Assembly: GCA_025454925.1 (NCBI GenBank)
Contig: JALONM010000001.1
Coordinates: 62,001 to 126,000, forward strand
Origin: Cytophagaceae bacterium
Lineage (GTDB): Bacteria; Bacteroidota; Bacteroidia; Cytophagales; Cytophagaceae
DNA length: 64,000 nt
Direction: 5' to 3'
In this document: positions 28,841-44,522 of the stretch, one piece after another
Layout of the letters: every line of letters starts with the position of its first letter
How positions within the stretch are numbered: the first letter of the stretch is position 1
The notes under the pieces: generated by a model
The model's database searches: none
What the model was told of the DNA's origin: nothing
The model's input: the letters and a program-made list of their open reading frames with translations, nothing else
Made by a program: the position numbers and the translations under genes

Positions 28841-31800
28841 CTATTTCGTTTTTACAACTTTAGTGGTATGCTCGCCATCCTCTGCCACTACTCTTACAGA
28901 GTAATAACCAGCAGGCAGATCTTTCCCAAACTCAAAACTATCTTCCAAAATATTCTCTACCTGCATTACTAAATTCCCTTTGGTATCAGTAACAAATACT
29001 GAAATAATTTTAGCATTCGGCACAAAAATCACCGTCGTTTCTTCAAAAGGCTGTGGTATTGCCGATACGGGGGCCGGACTTGCAGAACAGCCTCCAACTT
29101 TAACGGTTTTGCTATACTCTTTATACCATGGCGCCTGAGAGAAGTTTACACCACAATACACGGTAAAGGTAGTGCCGTTCATATAAGCAGGGATCGCATA
29201 GGTAGCCTTTTTATTATCGGTGGCATCAATGGTAGTCGTGGCTCCGCTGTTGCTCCACCAATTTAAACTGGTAATAGCATTCACATCAGGTACCAGTGTA
29301 TACAACACCGTTTGTCCTGCGTCAATGCAAGAAGGGCCATTGATACCAAAAGAACTCACCGTGTTCACAGTAATAGTTACGGCAGCAGAAGTAGCGACGG
29401 CACCTGCATTATCAGTAGCGCGAGCAGTCAATGTATAATTTCCGGCCACCACACCAATCCAACTAAAGGAGTAAGGAGCAGAAAGATCTGTACCGAGTAA
29501 AGTGCTTCCCTGATAAAAATCCACTTTACTTATGCTTCCGTCCGCATCACTGGCATTGGCTGCTATGGCAATGGTGGCAGGAGCCGTAAAGGTAGCGTTT
29601 GACAGCGGCGCAGTAATTGAAACTTGTGGTGGTGTATTTACCGGATTGGTGACAACTATGGAAATACTGGCACTGGTCACTGCCCCCAAATTATCGGTGA
29701 CACGTGCGCTAAGGGTGTAGGTTCCAGCTAACACATTTGTCCAACTAAATGAATACGGAGCACTAATATCTGTTCCCAGCAAGGTAGCACCGTTGTAGAA
29801 GTCTACCTTGGCAACCGAACCGTCGGCATCGCTCGCTGCAGCAGTGATGGACACGCTGGCTGGCGCTAGAAAAGAGGCGTTATTTAACGGTGAGGTTATA
29901 CTTACCTGTGGTGGATTATTTACAACATTGTTTACCGTGATAACCGCCACTGCGGAGTTGGCAACTGCTCCGGAATTATCGGTGGCACGCGCACTTATAG
30001 AATAGGTTCCTGCAGCTACACCCGACCAATTCATGCTATAAGGTGCGGTAGCATCAGTTCCAAGTAATGTGGTTCCATTGTAAAAATCCACCTTGCTTAT
30101 AGACCCATCTGCATCGCTGGCATTCGCCGATATGGTAACTGAAGCCGGCGCAGAAAACGTAGCATTGTTCACAGGAGCGGTCAACAAAATCGTTGGTGGT
30201 GTATTGACATAGGTTCCATAGAATGAAATCTCCGCCACATTTCCATTACTTCCAACCGGTGATAAATAGCGTAGGTAACGGAAATTTGATGCATTGGAAA
30301 CGGTAATACAATTCCACTCCAAGCCTGGTACTCCCGCGATGGTGGCCAGATCTGTGACAGTAGCAAACGTTGCGGAATTACTTCCCTGGAATTTTCCACC
30401 CGTCATTCTCCCTTCAAATCCTGCTCTTGGGAAAAAGCGAACACCGGAAACAGTCGCATTTCTTCCTAAATCAAATCCTACCCATGATCCATCGGCCATT
30501 GGCGAATCAAAAAACGTAGAGGTGTTTCCATCAACGGCCTTGCCTTTGTCGTCTCCCAGATTATTCCAGGAGCCGTCTGTGCCAATAATAGTCGTTGATC
30601 TCAACTCTGCACCCGATACGGTACATGGAGGATTGGATACGACCACTACAATACCTGTGGTGTTGGAGAATGCGCCTAAATTATCGGTAGCTTTCGCAGT
30701 AAGCGTATACGTTCCTGCAGGCACATTAGTCCATGTGAAGGAATAAGGAGCACTTAGATCAGTACCGATCAAGGTACTACCCTGGAAGAATTCAACTTTG
30801 CTAACCGATCCATCGGCATCGCTGGCAGTGGCCGTTAAGCTAATAGAGGCCGGAGCAAGAAATGAAGCATTGTTGGCAGGGGAAGTAAGACTGATGGAAG
30901 GTGCCAGGTTTCCGGTTGAATTTTTAATGATCGGAGCTTCCCAAAGTCCTCGTCCGGAAGTGGCTACACGCAACATACCAATGGAGTAGTTAATTTCCAA
31001 TTCGGAAACCGGTACATTAGGCAATCCATCAAAATAATCAACCCAGGTGGTGGTGCCAGGTTTTAAATAATATACTCCCACCGAAAGACCAACGTACAAG
31101 ATATCTTCCGGATTTTTCTGATACACAATACAACGCTTTCCTATATTAGGAAGATTGAAAGTAACATTAGTCCAATTAGTTCCAGCATTATCAGATTTAA
31201 AAACACCACTATTAGTAATGACACTTACCTTGTTCGCATCGGTAGGGTGCACGCTGATGTAATTGATTCCTCCACTCAAGCCTGCTGTGATGTTTGTCCA
31301 ACTGGTTCCACCATTTTTGGTAACCCACATGGTTCCGCCATCAGCAGCATACAAAAACTGATTATTGGAAGGCGCAATGGTAGCGGCTTCCAGACCTGAG
31401 GAGGTTCCAAAACTGGAAATCTTTGTCCAACTGGCTCCGCCATTGGTTGATTTCCAAACATCACGATAGCCGATGTAAATGGTAGAAGGACTCACTGGAT
31501 CGATGAATAATGGCGTTACCCAATTTCCACCACCACCAGGAGGTTCGCTAATACCTGTGCGGCTCATTCCACCATTGGTAGATTTCCAAAGACCACCATT
31601 TTGCAAACAAGCATACACATTATTTTTGTTATTGTAATCAATGACTACTTCCATACCGTCTGCTCCTGCCCAATCGCGCCAGTTATTCACATTTTTGGTC
31701 AGCAATATGCTTTGTCCATTATCCTGAGATCCACCGCCAATAAAATAGGGATCTGATTCTATACCACCGATGCGGTAGAACTCTCTATTGCCTTTACCAA

Positions 31801-33118
31801 AGGAAATAATACTCCAGTCGTCGCCTTCATTAATGCTTTTAAACAAGCCTCCATCGCTGCCGCAATACACGGCACTTCCAACCCATTCCAGGGCATGCAC
31901 ATCGGCATGTACATATCCAACCGGATTTCCCCAGGTCCATTCCGAAACCTGATAGTAGGTTACTCCACCATCGTTAGAACCCCAAAGGTTAATACCACCA
32001 ATGATTATTTTATTGGCGTTGGTAGGCGAAGCCGTAATGGCCATATCGTATCCGGCCTGTCCACCTCCTTCACGAGGATTATATCCAAAATAATTGGTTC
32101 CATTGGCAGGATTGGCAGCTAGCTGAGTGGTAAATGAAGCCCCACTGTTGGAGGAACGGAATACAAACCCAAGCTCTTCACCTTTGGCCTGAACTACATA
32201 CACATAATTTGGATTGGCTGGAGTAACGGCCAAAAATGACCGGCCGGAAGTAGTAAGGCCTGCAGTAATAAGGCTAAAAGTTGAACCATTGTTAGTGGAA
32301 CGGAAAAAAGTATTTCCGCACGCATACACAATAGAAGGGTCGCCGGGCTTAAAATCCAGGTCATTAAAACCTCCGCCTTGTACCAGTGTAAACGTACTAC
32401 CAGCATCGGTGGAACGAAAAATACCATTGGTGGAAGCCACTAACACCACAGAGGGATTAGCTGGATTATAAATTATTTTTTTAGGGTTCCCGTTGGTAAG
32501 ACTGGTATTCGTCCAGGAAATACCACCGTTGGTTGATTTTAAAATTCCTAAACCACTGATGCCTGCCAGCACCAGGTTGGAATTGGTAGGATGCACTTCT
32601 ACGCAATTCGAATATACAGCGGGTAAATGATCGGTAAGCGGAATCCAGGAAGTACCGCCGTTAGTGGTTTTCCAAACACCACCTACCCCACTGGAGTAGA
32701 TTACCTGATTGTTTTGCGGATCTACACTAATGTAGGTAACGCGACCCATACCTGGAGAATAATGCGCCGTTACATTGAATTTATGAGGTCCTAGTTCTGT
32801 ATACACATTTCCAACTTTAGCAGCAGGACGAGCCTTGCGCGCTGCAATAAGCTTCTCATGTTCGTTCCAAACCTGACGGGCAGTTTGCATGCCTGATGAA
32901 TTCATAGACAACAAGCGTTCGTATTCCCAGCGTTTGAACGCCTTATAACCAGAGCCCTTGCCGGTTCCATGGTCTTTAAAATATTCTTCCGCCATTCGCT
33001 GAACTTCGTAAAAATCAGCGTCTGGATCTTGCATCATTTCTAGAAATTTCTGAGCCTGCATGGGTAGTTGAACCAGCAGTAGAATCAGAAGAAATGCATG
33101 AGTAAACATTCGTAGCAT
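28841..33118 (-). CDS. Giant surface protein: VPS10/BNR beta-propeller, four Ig-like domains, F5/8-type domain, T9SS tail (paralog 3)
   Basis: 1425 residues. Signal peptide to about 22 (QAQ), then the shared block MQDPDADFYEVQRMAEEYF and GTGKGSGYKAFKRWEYER, and a propeller (about 95-730) very close to paralogs 1 and 2. The C-terminal half differs: Ig-like 1 (about 735-825), a discoidin/F5/8 type C-like domain (about 829-974; NNLGDDKGKAVDGNTSTFFDS, WVGFDLGRNATVSGVRFF), Ig-like 2-4 (about 976-1258), a further beta domain with two cysteines (about 1260-1340), and a short T9SS-type tail (from about 1356, ending TTKVVKTK). No CBM6 modules remain. It faces paralog 2 tail to tail. Likely a surface adhesin or glycan binder; enzymatic activity is unproven. 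Confidence 0.87.
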   Translation of the reverse strand: MLRMFTHAFLLILLLVQLPMQAQKFLEMMQDPDADFYEVQRMAEEYFKDHGTGKGSGYKAFKRWEYERLLSMNSSGMQTARQVWNEHEKLIAARKARPAAKVGNVYTELGPHKFNVTAHYSPGMGRVTYISVDPQNNQVIYSSGVGGVWKTTNGGTSWIPLTDHLPAVYSNCVEVHPTNSNLVLAGISGLGILKSTNGGISWTNTSLTNGNPKKIIYNPANPSVVLVASTNGIFRSTDAGSTFTLVQGGGFNDLDFKPGDPSIVYACGNTFFRSTNNGSTFSLITAGLTTSGRSFLAVTPANPNYVYVVQAKGEELGFVFRSSNSGASFTTQLAANPANGTNYFGYNPREGGGQAGYDMAITASPTNANKIIIGGINLWGSNDGGVTYYQVSEWTWGNPVGYVHADVHALEWVGSAVYCGSDGGLFKSINEGDDWSIISFGKGNREFYRIGGIESDPYFIGGGSQDNGQSILLTKNVNNWRDWAGADGMEVVIDYNNKNNVYACLQNGGLWKSTNGGMSRTGISEPPGGGGNWVTPLFIDPVSPSTIYIGYRDVWKSTNGGASWTKISSFGTSSGLEAATIAPSNNQFLYAADGGTMWVTKNGGTSWTNITAGLSGGINYISVHPTDANKVSVITNSGVFKSDNAGTNWTNVTFNLPNIGKRCIVYQKNPEDILYVGLSVGVYYLKPGTTTWVDYFDGLPNVPVSELEINYSIGMLRVATSGRGLWEAPIIKNSTGNLAPSISLTSPANNASFLAPASISLTATASDADGSVSKVEFFQGSTLIGTDLSAPYSFTWTNVPAGTYTLTAKATDNLGAFSNTTGIVVVVSNPPCTVSGAELRSTTIIGTDGSWNNLGDDKGKAVDGNTSTFFDSPMADGSWVGFDLGRNATVSGVRFFPRAGFEGRMTGGKFQGSNSATFATVTDLATIAGVPGLEWNCITVSNASNFRYLRYLSPVGSNGNVAEISFYGTYVNTPPTILLTAPVNNATFSAPASVTISANASDADGSISKVDFYNGTTLLGTDATAPYSMNWSGVAAGTYSISARATDNSGAVANSAVAVITVNNVVNNPPQVSITSPLNNASFLAPASVSITAAASDADGSVAKVDFYNGATLLGTDISAPYSFSWTNVLAGTYTLSARVTDNLGAVTSASISIVVTNPVNTPPQVSITAPLSNATFTAPATIAIAANASDADGSISKVDFYQGSTLLGTDLSAPYSFSWIGVVAGNYTLTARATDNAGAVATSAAVTITVNTVSSFGINGPSCIDAGQTVLYTLVPDVNAITSLNWWSNSGATTTIDATDNKKATYAIPAYMNGTTFTVYCGVNFSQAPWYKEYSKTVKVGGCSASPAPVSAIPQPFEETTVIFVPNAKIISVFVTDTKGNLVMQVENILEDSFEFGKDLPAGYYSVRVVAEDGEHTTKVVKTK
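29350..30910 (-). repeat. Ig-like domain repeats within paralog 3, three of them tandem with a period of about 288 bases
   Basis: Four Ig-like units are encoded: one at about 30650-30910, and three back to back at about 29350-30210. They share near-identical protein cores such as DADGSxSKVDFYxGxTLLGTD and SARATDN-type ends. The strong similarity at DNA level makes unequal recombination and repeat-number change likely. Confidence 0.75.
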
Positions 33119-37303: not shown

Positions 37304-37404
37304 AGATTACGAATGAATGCTTGAAAAATGAGAGAATGAAGAAAATACGAAGCGGAATTAAATAACAAAGGTTAGAGGGCTATTCATCATACCCTATAAA
37401 AAAC

Positions 37405-37437
37405 GAAGAGGGAGTCACCGTTGTGACTCACCTCTTC
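37405..37437 (-). terminator. Terminator at the end of the glucan operon
   Basis: GAAGAGGGAGTCAC (37405-37418) and GTGACTC plus CCTCTTC (37423-37437, one bulged A) form a 14-bp stem with a CGTT loop. On the minus strand it is followed by a T run (GTTTTTTAT). It lies 45 bases after the stop of the last operon gene. Confidence 0.8.
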
Positions 37438-37481: not shown

Positions 37482-38459
37482 TTACGGTTGAAGGGGACCA
37501 CCATGCGTAAAGACCATATGATCTACTGCTACAGACACGGGAGTAGTAGCTAAAGGTACCGCATCTGACAACAAAACTAAGGAAACTAAATTAATTTTCT
37601 GAGGATTATATGAAATTTCTTCGTTATCAGGGACAAAATCTGTGTACTTAATAGTAACAAGCTTCCACCCAGTCCAGTTTGGTCGAATATTGTAATTACG
37701 GGCAGCCACACCATTTTCCTGCAAACCAATCTGCAACCATGTCTTATTCGATGGTCCGTTGCCGTAAACCATTATATTAAAGTACACTTTGTTATAATCA
37801 GCGTATAAAGGAAAAAAGCCAGAAGTATAACTTACATCGCTATTTACGGCCCTGATATTCAGAAAATTTACATAAGGGGATCCTGCTCCTTGCCATGGAG
37901 TTCCAGACATATAACAATAATTATTTCCATCAGGGAAACCATAATTGGTAGTTGTACCAGGATATTCAATAGGTGGCCAGTCCTTTTGCCATGCTATTTT
38001 AGGTGCACTAAAATTAGTTACGATCACCGCTCCTGCATCCATATTTCTGCGACCAGCAACTGTCATATTGAGCCTCAATGTATCGCCAGGAGAATTTGGA
38101 AAAGAAACCTTTGCTGTCACTGGTTCCAGAGCAAAGGCAGGCAAGGAACTAGCTCTGCCATCCCATACAATTTTGGAAGGGTCTATTTCATTTGAAATTC
38201 CTTCGACTGTATACTTGGCGCCTGAGTTATTTCCGGTAATAGTAAGTACCCAATAAGCATCCCGTTCGAACACCGCCTTAAATCCAACTTTCTGGCCAGT
38301 CGAAAAATTTGGATTCGAGGTGGTAGCGGTTAAACCTTCTTTCACTACCACTTTGCTAAATATAGCCTTTTGATCCGGACCTAAACGCTCCACATCGCTG
38401 CAAGCTGATAACAAGCCAACAAAGGTGACAGCAAGTATCCAATTTCTTCCTATTTTCAT
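37482..38459 (-). CDS. Surface lipoprotein with Ig-like and jelly-roll-like domains, probable glycan binder
   Basis: 325 residues. A lipoprotein signal ends in the lipobox LLSAC (Cys20). The N-terminal half (about 30-160) is beta-rich and Ig-like; the C-terminal half (about 175-325) looks like a CBM11-type jelly roll (VYFNIMVYGNG, WLQIGLQENG, WKLVTIKYTDF, SVAVDHMVF). I do not recognise a named family. Its place as the last gene of an operon with two outer-membrane barrels and a GH16 glucanase suggests a surface glycan-binding lipoprotein, in the role SusE/SusF or SGBPs play in other loci. This is an inference from fold and context. Confidence 0.7.
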   Translation of the reverse strand: MKIGRNWILAVTFVGLLSACSDVERLGPDQKAIFSKVVVKEGLTATTSNPNFSTGQKVGFKAVFERDAYWVLTITGNNSGAKYTVEGISNEIDPSKIVWDGRASSLPAFALEPVTAKVSFPNSPGDTLRLNMTVAGRRNMDAGAVIVTNFSAPKIAWQKDWPPIEYPGTTTNYGFPDGNNYCYMSGTPWQGAGSPYVNFLNIRAVNSDVSYTSGFFPLYADYNKVYFNIMVYGNGPSNKTWLQIGLQENGVAARNYNIRPNWTGWKLVTIKYTDFVPDNEEISYNPQKINLVSLVLLSDAVPLATTPVSVAVDHMVFTHGGPLQP

Positions 38460-38498
38460 ACCATTAATGCGTCTTGATGTGTCTGAAGTAAACTCTTT

Positions 38499-40319
38499 TT
38501 AGAAACTTAGATTAAACATCAGGCTAATCCGGTCAAATTTAACCGAACGCGCAGAAGTTTTGGCGTCTTCCAGATTATACAAATGATGTTGCAGAGTCAG
38601 GTAAGACGCATTTGAGAAACGATAACGAGCCCCATACCCAATCATAGTTTCTGTTTGATCAATCTTGTAGAAGGTAGTATTCCAGTTAATAGGCTGGAAG
38701 TAGTTATTATACAAAGCTGTATATTCAGTTCCGCTAGCCATGTTCATCTTGATACCTGCCAGTAAATCTAACTTTTTAATAAGTTCTAACTCAAGTCCAG
38801 CATCAACTAAATTACTACTCAAATCAACGAAATCAATTGAATCAACACCTGGCCTATTGGTTTGATCCATGCGGAATCCACCATGAAGTACAATACGCTT
38901 CTCCCAACCAATTATTTTATGAATGTTTGCATTCGCTTTTAAACCAATCACCATAAAGGAACGCTTCTCTGTAAGAGATCCGGCAGGCACTACTTCCTGA
39001 AGCATCGCCGTATTTACAGCCAATCCTGCTTTTTCATTCTTATCGTTCCAGGTAGCTTTGATATCAACTCCTGTTCTATTTGGGGTAGCCACTCCAAAAG
39101 GAGTCGCATTACCATAAACCGGATTGTAGGCCATTAATCCAGCAGTTATCTGAGTATTCATCACGCCTGGATCGTGAATCATGTCGAACATGCTCACAGA
39201 TCTTGAAAATGGATTAAGCGGATCGTTTCCATAAATTGGGAAAGTGGCTAAATCATTGGAGCTGGTAGCAAAATTTACACGTTTAGATTGAGCCCCTGAA
39301 CTGTAAAAATAGGGATCCACACTGCGGTAAGTAGCTTTCACATTAATACCCAGTTTAACCAAATCAACAGAAAGTCCTGCATCGAAAAACGCGCCATTCA
39401 CATTCGTTGGTGCCAAGGTGTCTTTAAAGAAATTCATTTGGGACAAACCTCCCTCCGCTAACAAATTCAATCGCATGGCTGCACGGTTCAACAAAACGGC
39501 AGTCAATTCACCGGAACCTACCGGATTATGGAAATAGGTTTTGGGGGCTATTAAACTTTGGGTGCCGCCAATTTCGTAAAGGTTAATGTAATTAGCCGCC
39601 AAATTATAGCGAGAAGTTTTCAATAAGGAAACACGGCCACCTGTTTGGAAAGACGCAGGATCTAAAGCAGTCTGATTGCGATTTCGCAAGAAGAAAACAT
39701 CAAATTTCACTTGATCCAAAAAGGAAGTTTTGGCGCCTATAGAAAAATCCGCGTGTGCCCCTTGTTGCCACCAGCTATTGCCTTTGTTGAAATTCTCATA
39801 TTGAATGTAGTCTCTTCGGAAATCGCTGAATACCGCCGCTTCACTGATCTGGGCATCTCCATCGTTGTTATACATAGTATAAGGAGAAAGCTGAAGGCGA
39901 ATATCCCCCAATTCGTAGTTTACCGTTTTGGCTATAATACCACGAATGTAAATCCAACGTAAAATAGATTCATCTCCAGCGGCATAAAAGCTTCCCAACT
40001 GACTGCGCAAACGAAGTATGGCATTAATCTCCGTTTTCTTGTCCGGAGTGATTTTAAAGCCCAAATCCATCAAAACTGAACCGGTGGAAGTCCGGTCAAC
40101 GTTGAGTGTATCACGCTTGTCCAGGCGGTCCGATTGTTGCAAGCCTCGGCCGTAAATACCGAATTTCACCTTTTCATCCTGCGCCTGCACCTGCTGCATA
40201 TACGTTAATCCCAGCAAAGCTACCAATACGGTGCGAGTAGCGCTAAGGGAGAACTTCCAGGTATTTTGTAGAGGGTTCATAGATATTATAGTCATATTCC
40301 TTTTCAAAGTCTTGATCAT
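38499..40319 (-). CDS. Outer-membrane beta-barrel protein (glucan operon, second barrel)
   Basis: 606 residues as drawn; Met9 or Met15 are alternative starts closer to the signal peptide (VLVALLGLTYMQQVQAQ). The mature part is a run of amphipathic strands with alternating polar and hydrophobic residues and aromatic ends, such as KVKFGIYGRGLQQ, TEINAILRLRSQLG and LMFNLSF at the C-terminus. The terminal Phe is typical of barrels. It has no TonB box or plug domain, so it is not a SusC. It starts eight bases after the stop of the first barrel gene. It may be a porin or channel for glucan fragments. No named family is recognised. Confidence 0.75.
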   Translation of the reverse strand: MIKTLKRNMTIISMNPLQNTWKFSLSATRTVLVALLGLTYMQQVQAQDEKVKFGIYGRGLQQSDRLDKRDTLNVDRTSTGSVLMDLGFKITPDKKTEINAILRLRSQLGSFYAAGDESILRWIYIRGIIAKTVNYELGDIRLQLSPYTMYNNDGDAQISEAAVFSDFRRDYIQYENFNKGNSWWQQGAHADFSIGAKTSFLDQVKFDVFFLRNRNQTALDPASFQTGGRVSLLKTSRYNLAANYINLYEIGGTQSLIAPKTYFHNPVGSGELTAVLLNRAAMRLNLLAEGGLSQMNFFKDTLAPTNVNGAFFDAGLSVDLVKLGINVKATYRSVDPYFYSSGAQSKRVNFATSSNDLATFPIYGNDPLNPFSRSVSMFDMIHDPGVMNTQITAGLMAYNPVYGNATPFGVATPNRTGVDIKATWNDKNEKAGLAVNTAMLQEVVPAGSLTEKRSFMVIGLKANANIHKIIGWEKRIVLHGGFRMDQTNRPGVDSIDFVDLSSNLVDAGLELELIKKLDLLAGIKMNMASGTEYTALYNNYFQPINWNTTFYKIDQTETMIGYGARYRFSNASYLTLQHHLYNLEDAKTSARSVKFDRISLMFNLSF

Positions 40320-40327
40320 CGTAAGTA

Positions 40328-42262
40328 TTAGAAGAAAATTTTAAGTTCAACGGTGGACTCATATCCCTTGAAATCCTCGTCTTTAAAACTATTGTCCTGG
40401 AATCGAATCCAGCGGTGACGGAAGTAAATTGAAGTGCTATTCGACAATGTAAGGTCAGCACCCATTCCTACGCCTCGGCCCATTTGATCTCTGGATAAAC
40501 CTGCCTGACCGTTTCGACCAGTAGTGGCAGTAGTAAGATCCGTCTTTTTATTTCCTTTGGTAAATTCTAAGCCATAGTAACCAGAAATCACCAAGTCTCT
40601 GGCAATATGCACATACGCTTCGGCCTCATGCGCATGAGAACTGATAAATGCGGCCTCTCCAAAAACCGGCAGGATAGAGAACTTATTCTGAGCAGATTGG
40701 GCAGAGCTTAACAAGAAGTAATACACGTCTTTCCCTAAAATCTTATTCTTGTATTTCAACTGCAAATCCAGGGATGCATAATGATTCTTAGAAATCGGAG
40801 TGGAATCAGGGTTCAAGGCATTCACATTCACAATTTCATACACACCTCTGTAAAATGTTCCTATTCGCTGATTCGGACCTAATCTATAAGGATCTCCTGT
40901 AGCTTCTATCAAGGCTGGAAAATTATAGGCCATCCTCGACCATGCTAAGGAATTGATGCGGTGCGAATAGGTCAATTGACGCCCAAACGGAAGTTTATTG
41001 ATTTCACTTTCAAACTGAATACCTCCAATAATTTTTAGCTTACCAATCTTACCTTCTGTATTGATGGCTCCTCCTTGACGGTTGTTGGCTAATCCACCGA
41101 CACCAGTAAGATTTCCACCGAAAGGTTGCAAGTTAAATGTTCCCAAGAATCCATTGTTCAACTCGGGATTTGATGTATTCTGGAATTGCGCCACATTCGA
41201 AGTGAAGTTTTTACTGATCCGGAAGAAGCGAAAATCAAACGGCATACTTCCAAATATTTCCGGCGTTCTCAAATTAAGAATGATACCTTCTCCCCAAGCC
41301 CTCTTATAATTAGGACTTTCATAGAAGCCATACCCCACTTCCCCATTCAGATTAAACCCAAACTTATTAAGAAAGAATTCCGATGTAAAAATTTGCCATT
41401 GTACATCGATAGTTGAATTAATACTATCGCTCCGCGCAGTACTATTGAAGGTATTTAAACTTACATAACTATTATTTCCTAAGTTTTTATTAACACGGAT
41501 ACCCAAATTCGATTTAGGCATTACGATATTCTCACGATCAAACCCTCCGTTGTTTTGCGACATACCATAGAAAACATCCGCGCTCAGGCGAAATGGAAGT
41601 CGCGTAACATTCAAAATAAATCCTTTGAAAGCATTAGTACCGAAACGAATGTCCTGGTTAATGGTACCTGTATGATAGTAAGAAGCATAGCGTCCCTTCA
41701 CATTCCCGGCAGGGTCCCAAGGCTGTCTTTCCCACACACTGTATCGGTTATAACCTACGTTACCTCCAAAAGTGAACGGCGACAAGCGTACCCATTCAAT
41801 ACCACCAAAGCGTAAATAATAACTTCCGTATTTAGTATCTGCAGTACCTCTTAATACCATGGTGTTAAAGGGGCCTGTTCTTCTTGGCTGCGTGGTTCCT
41901 AAAAACGCATCAAAACTATCGCCCAAATACACTTCTGAACCTAAACTCAAACCTGGCATGGGTGAACCACCCAAGTAAAAAAACAAGAAAGGGTTCTGGT
42001 AAATATCACCTCCGCGCATTACAGGCGCTGCGGTCCAGCCATCATATGGGTCTTTCAGCTTTCGACTAAAGAAATAACCACGATAATACCCACCTACATC
42101 AAGCTTGCTTAAAGCCCTCTTAAAATATTCGGGCGACACAGCCAACTGATGCTCGAGCTTTACCGGAGCTATTTGTGCGGAATCTTGCGCGAACACCTGC
42201 AACGCCAGCAACAGCAAACAGCACTGGAGGAATTGACGGCAGGTTGTAAACAAAATCTTCAT
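40328..42262 (-). CDS. Outer-membrane beta-barrel protein (glucan operon, first barrel)
   Basis: The frame is open from 42292; I prefer the ATG at 42262 (MKILFTTCRQFLQCCLLLLA), which gives a standard signal peptide ending in FAQ. About 644 residues of barrel-like strands (YRGYFFSRK, LRFGGIEWVR, FRLSADVFYG, SLDLQLKYKNK), ending KGYESTVELKIFF with a C-terminal Phe. It resembles large Bacteroidota porin-like proteins rather than TonB-dependent receptors; no plug or TonB box is seen. It follows the GH16 gene by a few bases. Transport or display of glucan is the likely role, by context only. Confidence 0.75.
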   Translation of the reverse strand: MKILFTTCRQFLQCCLLLLALQVFAQDSAQIAPVKLEHQLAVSPEYFKRALSKLDVGGYYRGYFFSRKLKDPYDGWTAAPVMRGGDIYQNPFLFFYLGGSPMPGLSLGSEVYLGDSFDAFLGTTQPRRTGPFNTMVLRGTADTKYGSYYLRFGGIEWVRLSPFTFGGNVGYNRYSVWERQPWDPAGNVKGRYASYYHTGTINQDIRFGTNAFKGFILNVTRLPFRLSADVFYGMSQNNGGFDRENIVMPKSNLGIRVNKNLGNNSYVSLNTFNSTARSDSINSTIDVQWQIFTSEFFLNKFGFNLNGEVGYGFYESPNYKRAWGEGIILNLRTPEIFGSMPFDFRFFRISKNFTSNVAQFQNTSNPELNNGFLGTFNLQPFGGNLTGVGGLANNRQGGAINTEGKIGKLKIIGGIQFESEINKLPFGRQLTYSHRINSLAWSRMAYNFPALIEATGDPYRLGPNQRIGTFYRGVYEIVNVNALNPDSTPISKNHYASLDLQLKYKNKILGKDVYYFLLSSAQSAQNKFSILPVFGEAAFISSHAHEAEAYVHIARDLVISGYYGLEFTKGNKKTDLTTATTGRNGQAGLSRDQMGRGVGMGADLTLSNSTSIYFRHRWIRFQDNSFKDEDFKGYESTVELKIFF

Positions 42263-42296
42263 ATTAATCATCGGATCGTTGAATTCAGTCATCTAG

Positions 42297-43193
42297 TTAT
42301 TTTTGCTCTTCCACACGCTTGAATACGCGCACGTAATCCACAAACATGTACTTGGGAAACACTGTATTATCATCGGGATTTCCAGGCCAATTTCCACCAA
42401 TGGCGAGGTTCAACAGAAAATGAAACTTCTGGTCGAAAGGCCAACGATGTGGTTTTAAATCTGCAGGGGTGCGGGTCGCATACAAACTATCGTCCAAGTA
42501 AAAACGAATCACATTCGGCTCCCATTCGGCAATGTATACATGATAATCTGTGGACACATCCTTCCCTTTTTCCAATTCAATTTTAGCACCTACCCATTTG
42601 TTATCAGGCCATGGCAAACCATAATGCAAGGTTCCATGAACCGTTGAGGGTAAATTTCCGATAGTTTCCACAATATCGATCTCTCCACTTTGAGGCCAGG
42701 TACCGTACTTATATTCGGTAGGCAACATCCAACCTGCAGGCCATACACCTTGCTGTACAGGAAGTTTAGCGCGTATCTCCATTCTGCCGTACAAAAAGTC
42801 TGCTTTTCCTCTGCTGTTCACACGAGCCGACGTATACTGCTGTCCTTTATAATTTTGCTTAATGGCTTTAATTACCAGTTTGCCTTTGCGGAAAAATAAG
42901 TTCGCTTTAGAATTAGTATAAAACTGTAATTCGTTATTTCCACCGCCATCTCCGTTTACTTCATAATTCCACTTGGATGTATCTAATGTATCCCCATTAA
43001 ATTCATCGCTCCAATAAAATTTCCAGCCCGGACGAATGGTATCGGTCTTATATCCGTTGTCTCCTGGCTCTACAAAATCTTCTTCCACAGATTCTTCGGC
43101 GGTAAGATACGTATCGGGTTGTTTCACAAAGTATACCTTGGAACAAGCACCTAAAGCAACAATTACTAGTAAAGCTATATATATTTTTTTCAT
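42297..43193 (-). CDS. GH16-family endo-beta-glucanase lipoprotein
   Basis: 298 residues. The lipoprotein signal ends in the lipobox LGAC (Cys17). After a spacer the GH16 jelly roll begins at about 55 (WKFYWSDEFNGDTLDTSKWNYE). The catalytic motif EIDIVE gives nucleophile Glu171 and acid/base Glu176, with Asp173 between, the pattern of laminarinase-type GH16 enzymes with the extra Met/Ile-free EIDxxE core. Further family marks are WPAGWMLP, HGTLHYG and FLLNLAIGGNWPG. Substrate is most likely beta-1,3- or mixed beta-1,3/1,4-glucan. It sits on the cell surface or facing the periplasm. Gaps of eight and four bases to its neighbours place it in the operon. Confidence 0.92.
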   Translation of the reverse strand: MKKIYIALLVIVALGACSKVYFVKQPDTYLTAEESVEEDFVEPGDNGYKTDTIRPGWKFYWSDEFNGDTLDTSKWNYEVNGDGGGNNELQFYTNSKANLFFRKGKLVIKAIKQNYKGQQYTSARVNSRGKADFLYGRMEIRAKLPVQQGVWPAGWMLPTEYKYGTWPQSGEIDIVETIGNLPSTVHGTLHYGLPWPDNKWVGAKIELEKGKDVSTDYHVYIAEWEPNVIRFYLDDSLYATRTPADLKPHRWPFDQKFHFLLNLAIGGNWPGNPDDNTVFPKYMFVDYVRVFKRVEEQK

Positions 43194-43201
43194 ACTCCAG
43201 A

Positions 43202-44302
43202 TTATCGAACAAATCGAATTTCGTCAAGATATAAAGTACCTGTTGGAAGTACCATGTACAAAAGTGTATTCAACTTCTCGCGATCAACACCTTTCAAACT
43301 GATCCGGTATCTTTTCCATTCGTTGGTAATCTCCACCGACACATCATTGACACGTTCTTCATTCATGTCGCCTGCCCCTACTCCGATCTCCGACAAAATA
43401 TAAGGACGGTTCTTGGTGCATTCCGCACGTGCATAAAACTCCAATGCCGTATATTGACTCATGTCAGGCAGTTTCGACCAGTCGTTCAGCATAACATTCC
43501 ATTTACCCGAAGAAAAGATGTACAAACCTCTCCAAGCTTCAGAATTGTCTACAGCGAACTTCAAACATTTAGGACCGAGATATGGATTAAAGCGACAGTC
43601 TGGATCGATTTTCATACTAATACCATTCTTTTCACCCATGAATCCACTGGGAATTCCTCTTTCCCAGCCATCCATGAAAATGTAATAACTGGAAGTATCT
43701 TTAGGAACCTTGCGACCCGATAAAACTAAATCATCGACATTGGTTTCAATAGAAGAAGTAAAGTAGATCTCATCCAGATACACCACCATTGGCCTGGTAA
43801 ATACCAACAAAAACAAACCGTTTAGTGAAGTAGCATTTTGTGGCACCTCTAATACATAGCGTTTCCAGGAGGTGGTTAATGGAATTTTTGTTTGTTCGGA
43901 TTTTGGTTCTCCTTCTTCTCCTATCCCAACTTTCTCCAACAAGCCTTCCGATTCAGCTTTTGCATGAAAAACCAAATATTTGTGTGAACTTAAGTCAGCC
44001 ATGGCTGTTTCAGGAGGAAGAAACCTGCGTGCCGTAGTATTCTTATATACAAAAAGTACAGACCATGACTCCGTTCCATCCATTTTCACTTTCCAACAAG
44101 AGTTTCCCTTGAATGGGGAGACTGTGCAGGCAGCATCCTGGCTTATGCTCGTGCCACCCTTTTCACCAAGCAACCCCGAAGGACTTCCTTCGGTAAACTT
44201 GTCGTCATACACGTAGTAGGGCTGAGCACTTAGTGATGCCCAACACAACAAACCAAGCCATTGAAACCAATTTGTAAAGACCGTCTTGGAATTTCTGTTC
44301 AT
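43202..44302 (-). CDS. Exported protein made of two tandem jelly-roll (CBM-like) domains
   Basis: 366 residues, first gene of the glucan operon. A signal peptide ends near LSAQ (about 27). Two clear internal repeats follow (about 29-180 and 205-366), each starting Y-(V/I)-x-x-D and containing SG(L/F)(L/M)GEK(G/N)G, a Cys pair around the P-(F/Y)-x-G-x-(S/K)-C motif, a W-rich core, WKRY and a final VYLDEI(Y/R)F strand. The fold resembles CBM11/CIA30-like carbohydrate-binding jelly rolls. No catalytic residues or T9SS tail are seen. It is probably a periplasmic or released glucan-binding protein. Name and ligand are unknown to me. Confidence 0.75.
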   Translation of the reverse strand: MNRNSKTVFTNWFQWLGLLCWASLSAQPYYVYDDKFTEGSPSGLLGEKGGTSISQDAACTVSPFKGNSCWKVKMDGTESWSVLFVYKNTTARRFLPPETAMADLSSHKYLVFHAKAESEGLLEKVGIGEEGEPKSEQTKIPLTTSWKRYVLEVPQNATSLNGLFLLVFTRPMVVYLDEIYFTSSIETNVDDLVLSGRKVPKDTSSYYIFMDGWERGIPSGFMGEKNGISMKIDPDCRFNPYLGPKCLKFAVDNSEAWRGLYIFSSGKWNVMLNDWSKLPDMSQYTALEFYARAECTKNRPYILSEIGVGAGDMNEERVNDVSVEITNEWKRYRISLKGVDREKLNTLLYMVLPTGTLYLDEIRFVR

Positions 44303-44522
44303 ATACAGTTATTTTAGATCATTTTTCCCTGATCTTGTTGGAATATGTAGTCTTACTATCAGGATTAAAAGGAAATCTGAAAAAACTTCTAAAATAAATT
44401 CAAATCCCTGTGTCAGGTAATTGTTAAAAATTACGCTTAGGAAGCATAACCGACAGCCAAATCCTGTCTATTAATACTAGGTTCGCACAAAAATGGTTAC
44501 AGTTAAATCGCAATCAATACAA

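Follow-up and report, generated by a model that had tools for sequence, protein, structure and literature searches.

The closest described relative of the locus studied here is the chu_1276-1280 cluster of C. hutchinsonii, termed an 'atypical PUL' (polysaccharide utilization locus) for cellulose (PMC12016534). Two of its products, CHU_1276 and CHU_1277, reside in the outer membrane and are required for the use of cellulose, and growth on cellulose is lost upon their deletion; CHU_1278 and CHU_1279 resemble surface glycan-binding proteins (SGBPs), CHU_1280 is an endoglucanase, and the cluster was reported in two further cellulolytic species (PMC12016534). CHU_1277 has additionally been linked to cello-oligosaccharide assimilation (PMC5553014). 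Here we analysed a 64,000-nucleotide stretch of the genome of a Cytophagaceae bacterium (contig JALONM010000001.1, positions 62,001 to 126,000; hereafter the window), which contains at 37482-44302, on the minus strand, a five-gene operon related to this cluster. We consider it probable that the operon serves the acquisition of laminarin-type glucan on an outer-membrane core independent of SusC and SusD (SusCD), with oligosaccharides imported through a pair of β-barrels.

The five co-directional open reading frames (ORFs) stand in the order given by an earlier note on this DNA. They are listed below in the order of transcription, and the identities stated for the barrels are against the C. hutchinsonii genes.

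43202..44302, minus strand: gene 1, secreted protein of 366 amino acids (aa) with two jelly-rolls resembling carbohydrate-binding modules (CBMs); ORF, weak CBM_6 match (0.0081)
42297..43193, minus strand: gene 2, laminarinase-type lipoprotein of glycoside hydrolase (GH) family GH16, 298 aa; PF00722 E=7e-21, lipobox LGAC
40328..42292, minus strand: gene 3, barrel A, plugless outer-membrane β-barrel of 654 aa, homolog of CHU_1276 (29% identity)
38499..40319, minus strand: gene 4, barrel B, plugless, 606 aa, homolog of CHU_1277 (32% identity)
37482..38459, minus strand: gene 5, SGBP-like lipoprotein of 325 aa, homolog of CHU_1278; lipobox LSAC, weak CBM_11 match (0.018)

The barrel pair and the absence of SusC and SusD

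The AlphaFold models of barrel A (predicted local distance difference test, pLDDT, 80.6; predicted template modelling score, pTM, 0.81; 51 aligned relatives) and barrel B (pLDDT 89.0, pTM 0.85, 22 strands; 57 aligned relatives) have in common that the barrel begins shortly past the signal peptide and that an N-terminal plug is absent. Pfam searches gave no convincing match for barrel A or B, either from the window or from its relatives, and no plug or TonB_dep_Rec match; NCBIfam searches gave none for barrel B and its relatives, nor for barrel A of the window. The lack of a plug, previously read from the letters of the sequence, is thus confirmed for both proteins. As control, the profiles of the barrels were compared with eight proteins of the same genome that resemble TonB-dependent transporters (TBDTs), which yielded 20.6% and 1.1%. 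In view of these values, the missing plug and the missing Pfam match, we ruled out that the barrels derive from TonB-dependent receptors.

Aligned with each other by hhalign, barrels A and B match over 483 columns (probability 98.8, E=1.2e-16), and by this measure of sequence they are distant paralogs. Long ordered loops are on average more conserved than the strands, and the conserved-loop motifs GxATPNRxG of barrel B and GxxANNRxG of barrel A align mutually. These loops may line or narrow the barrel pore. Foldseek comparison of both barrels with the PDB revealed only general barrel likeness, to AlgE, OprD-type porins, MOMP and ushers, with query template modelling (TM) scores mostly of 0.2-0.4; for barrel A the best matches were AlgE, MtrB, MOMP and OprD-type proteins, again at low TM. 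Sequence searches of the PDB with the barrels returned nothing useful, including no useful relation to OprD/Occ porins, chitoporin or AlgE.

None of the five ORFs of the operon is a SusC or SusD gene. In the whole genome, which is 99.84% complete, the SusD models PF14322 and PF07980 have zero matches, and the SusC model TIGR04056 has none above the cut-off, its weak matches being confined to the N-terminal portions of other receptors. Among 19 genomes of the same family, nine are without both SusC and SusD and all nine have barrel-pair matches; the two family genomes without the barrel pair (G013 and G014) possess both SusC and SusD. Across 44 genomes reached via related loci, the SusD count ranges from 0 to 4. 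The earlier proposal of SusCD-independent use of β-glucan is therefore well supported, by the genome-wide absence of SusD and of any SusC above the cut-off as well as by the plugless barrels.

Scanning GTDB genomes with a ten-sequence barrel alignment, we found 80 loci, which belong to Cytophagaceae, Flavobacteriales and Bacteroidales. In 74/74 testable named loci the gene immediately upstream of barrel B is barrel A, and in 76/76 the gene immediately downstream of it encodes the SGBP lipoprotein, a locus being testable if its contig extends far enough to show the neighbour. The median gaps within this core are about 4 bases. Whole-genome loci, which partly overlap the named set, gave counts of 50 for the upstream and 49 for the downstream neighbour, with one true downstream exception. 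This nearly invariant arrangement of barrel A, barrel B and SGBP appears to be new. In gene 5 and its relatives the lipobox cysteine (Cys20) is invariant across 39 sequences; a PDB sequence search with the SGBP lipoprotein gave nothing useful. Barrel B was present in 6 of 392 genomes of a phylum-wide sample, a lower bound given that few candidates were scored per genome, so the core is locally common and not universal.

The downstream exception is the locus L114 (5942-17774, minus strand), where the barrel pair occurs without the SGBP lipoprotein. Next to it lie genes for a 1321-aa glycosyltransferase family 2 (GT2) synthase with fused GH26/GH72-like domains, for an acyltransferase, for a UDP-glucose dehydrogenase and for an epimerase. 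In this locus the core may have been recruited for synthesis or export.

The complete order of the window (binding protein, GH16, barrel A, barrel B, SGBP) recurs in seven loci from six other genomes (L128-L134, with L130 and L133 in the same genome), and in 7/7 of them GH3 follows. The order is therefore not due to chance and is kept rather than scattered in relatives, so that none of the three results named in the earlier note as refuting its reading (a plug, a susCD pair under the same control, scattered genes) was obtained. We also observed the core in Bacteroidales (L136-L139, L141, L147 and L152), several of them from ruminant gut. Three of these loci carry GH5, and the ruminant ones encode a pair of SGBP lipoproteins but no recognisable enzyme; gut Bacteroidales may use fibre independently of SusCD.

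Enzymes, binding proteins and probable substrates

The GH16 assignment of gene 2 held: its ExDxxE catalytic motif is intact (GEIDIVE), and its best PDB relatives are the beta-1,3(4)-glucanase 7wwc (5.2e-65) and the laminarinase 3iln (8.9e-63). β-1,3-glucan of the laminarin type is the most likely target of the operon. The lipoprotein and jelly-roll signals described before were partly refined. Genes 2 and 5 do carry lipoboxes, and the product of gene 1 has an ordinary signal peptide without a lipobox.

Gene 1 encodes a probable glucan-binding protein, as far as its domains allow a prediction. Its N and C halves align with 30% identity (E=5e-27), which points to a duplication within the gene. 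In relatives that keep the gene order the domain occurs once, is about 200 aa long and is nearest to the C half (44-58%), so the duplication is specific to the window. PDB sequence searches with the binding proteins yielded nothing of use, and the gene 1 product found no relative there. In another locus (L117, 5070-6881), a CBM-like domain of the gene 1 type is fused to a TIM-barrel enzyme of the GH2_C type, which independently supports a glycan-binding role. Direct orthology of gene 1 with CHU_1279 was considered and found unsupported beyond a weak profile similarity (hhalign 83%, 94 columns).

Other loci join the core to further enzymes. GH16, GH158, GH30 and GH3 represent the β-1,3-glucan class, GH9 or GH5 the cellulose class and GH18 the chitin class, while a GH5-type enzyme with a GH27 α-galactosidase probably indicates mannan; the mannan label and part of the cellulose labels were assigned from the enzyme family. 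Some core loci add sodium-solute symporters (SSF), sugar permeases of the major facilitator superfamily (MFS) and AraR/NrtR-type NUDIX regulators. Taken together, the sister loci hold a full catabolic set of GH158, GH30, GH3, SSF or sugar MFS permeases and a NUDIX regulator, and their GH158 endo-β-1,3-glucanase has 9oro as PDB relative (3e-100). An AraR/NrtR-type NUDIX regulator, GH158, a sodium-solute symporter and the core share one operon in L150, L178, L179 and L196, which is likely a laminarin regulon of Flavobacteriales. A separate clade of the core (L189, L194, L195 and L201) lies beside sulfatases and CBM4/9 proteins with a type IX secretion system (T9SS) tail, which suggests a sulfated glycan.

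The enzyme class changes 7 times over the barrel B tree, against a mean of 27.9 after shuffling, and 0 of 200 shuffles were as low; 32 of the 95 tree rows are without an enzyme class, and near-copies among the sequences flatter the comparison. The chitin group and the mannan group each occupy a single branch with full support. With the two cellulose labels merged, we counted 4 changes on the barrel A tree (25.8 when shuffled) and 3 on the SGBP tree (24.3). The genome of the window has four copies of the core, one per class, beside GH16, GH9 (L070), GH18 and GH5-type enzymes, and the Flavobacteriales genome CANFBW01 has GH16, GH9 and GH18 versions (L130, L133, L160 and L198). Since barrel phylogeny tracks enzyme class and single genomes keep copies for several classes, the barrels appear to specialise by substrate.

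As to the layout of the operon, the gaps between its genes are 8, 4, 8 and 39 bases in the order of transcription. Both this spacing, earlier put at 4-39 bases, and the terminator were found in the sequence. The flanking features are the following:

37398..37437, minus strand: terminator of the Rho-independent type, 3′ of gene 5, with hairpin and T run in the sequence; scan entry GAGTCACAACGGTGACTC
44303..44522, minus strand: upstream intergenic region of 220 bases, where a promoter is expected; one weak sigma-70-like match only

The strong hairpin (37437-37405, GAAGAGG-t-GAGTCAC / GTGACTC-CCTCTTC) and its T run (about 37403-37398) lie just past gene 5. Beyond the operon, on its strand, 28841-33118 encodes a secreted-looking protein of 1425 aa with β-propeller-like repeats (GGVWKTTNGG type), Ig-like repeats and a T9SS-tail-like C-terminus.

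The proposed route and its alternatives

In the route that we propose, the GH16 lipoprotein would cut the glucan at the cell surface, where the tandem CBM-like protein and the SGBP-like lipoprotein would hold its chains. The oligosaccharides would then enter the periplasm via both plugless paralogs; these barrels probably act jointly, and the SGBP lipoprotein is a putative partner or cap. GH3 β-glucosidases, adjacent in relatives and encoded elsewhere in this genome, would make glucose and thereby keep up the gradient on which passive uptake could run. The barrel pair is probably a plugless import route, and import itself is what we infer.

A number of observations weigh against this route. 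Pore function is not established by structure because known porins yield low TM-scores (0.2-0.4), and in the open-access literature, outside of which most subscription journals fall, we found no transport assay for barrel A or B or for CHU_1276 or CHU_1277. No GH3 adjoins the operon of the window, and the six GH3 genes of this genome lie elsewhere. L114 has a GT2 synthase and a UDP-glucose dehydrogenase, not stand-alone hydrolases. Finally, loss of CHU_1277 or CHU_1276 lowers cell-associated β-glucosidase (PMC5553014), and what counts for CHU_1279 is its presence more than its binding, as poor binders restore growth (PMC12016534).

The last two results fit a scaffold role too, in which the barrel pair would anchor or organise surface enzymes and binding proteins and sugar would be taken up via another porin; the small similarity of the barrels to solved porins points the same way. 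However, two full-size barrels with long, ordered and strongly conserved loops exceed the needs of an anchor, and loss of CHU_1276 impairs growth on low glucose (PMC12016534). The tracking of enzyme class by barrel sequence would moreover be expected if a pore handles the product. A scaffold is the chief rival of import, and we regard it as unlikely.

We find it highly improbable that the barrels instead secrete a self-made β-glucan, in the manner of AlgE, which GH16 would trim. AlgE is among the top Foldseek matches of both barrels, and the synthase of L114, with its fused GH-type domains, its UDP-glucose dehydrogenase and its acyltransferase, would suit such a role; L114 is the sole reason for keeping this reading as a weak alternative. 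The operon, however, is without a synthase, its relatives add GH3, GH30, GH158, permeases and sugar regulators, the GH9 and GH18 versions are degradative, and the C. hutchinsonii deletions lose growth on cellulose. Hardly credible is a remnant of an ordinary PUL that lost its susCD and now uses generic porins: relatives in the family do use SusCD and the genome encodes further TBDT-like proteins that score below the SusC threshold, but the barrels are unrelated to those TBDTs, and the conservation of the pair across several taxonomic orders, in arrangement as in sequence and with an unchanging lipoprotein partner, argues for a positive module.

Import through the barrel pair may also be part of something wider. 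We give about even chances to the view that Bacteroidota possess, besides SusCD, a second general and modular glycan-acquisition machine. It would consist of a heteromeric plugless barrel pair with an SGBP lipoprotein, be TonB-independent, have substrate-specific lines for β-1,3-glucan, cellulose, chitin and mannan, and, in some genomes, take the place of SusCD altogether; the operon of the window would then be its β-1,3-glucan line.

Relation to known systems

Large-glycan uptake in Bacteroidota is usually viewed as a SusC/SusD process. Like canonical SusC/SusD PULs and utilisomes, the window joins a hydrolase lipoprotein, a glycan-binding lipoprotein and an outer-membrane barrel in one operon for one glycan. 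Unlike them, the operon has two unplugged paralogous barrels and lacks both SusD and a plugged, TonB-dependent barrel. With OprD/Occ porins, chitoporin and AlgE, the nearest folds in the PDB, its barrels share the outer membrane and the lack of a plug, whereas those proteins are smaller, single-gene barrels of 16-18 strands.

GH operons of Bacteroidota without susCD are not new as such. PULDB lists 2,533 SusC/D-less CAZyme clusters (PMC6499787). In the passage on them they form a mixed class for which, thousands of entries notwithstanding, no transporter is proposed, whereas the type found in the window is defined by a conserved barrel pair. In the open-access literature we encountered no SusCD-independent class beyond C. 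hutchinsonii, and no report of β-1,3-glucan, chitin or mannan versions, of barrel paralogy or of a wider distribution; within it, the cellulose locus of C. hutchinsonii is the only member of this operon family studied so far.

With CHU_1276-1280, the window shares homologs of barrel A, barrel B and the SGBP lipoprotein, adjacent and in the same order, as well as one glycoside hydrolase, a bimodular CBM-like protein (gene 1 in the window) for which glycan binding is predicted, and the absence of SusC/SusD from the locus. We recognised L075 as the C. hutchinsonii locus, all nine CHU_1279 residues named in PMC12016534 being located in one 375-aa protein. The two loci differ in that the binding protein and the enzyme come first in the window and last in CHU_1276-1280, and that the window barrels, 29-32% identical to CHU_1276/1277, belong to a different clade. 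Because a GH16 laminarinase-type enzyme replaces the GH9 of the cellulose locus, the operon is a variant and not the same PUL. The system was earlier called undescribed, which does not hold for the barrels and the last lipoprotein, homologs of CHU_1276/1277/1278; the β-1,3-glucan variant and the wider class do appear new.

The best reading of the operon is a new β-1,3-glucan variant, a paralog of the CHU_1276-1280 cellulose PUL with another substrate. As the barrel pair goes together with enzyme sets of four kinds and with SusD-free genomes, the C. hutchinsonii locus seems to be one representative of a broad class, which suggests that the CHU_1276-1280 type is substrate-diversified. Oligosaccharide import by SusCD-less degraders thereby becomes directly testable, since a single genome offers four natural substrate versions that can serve as internal controls.

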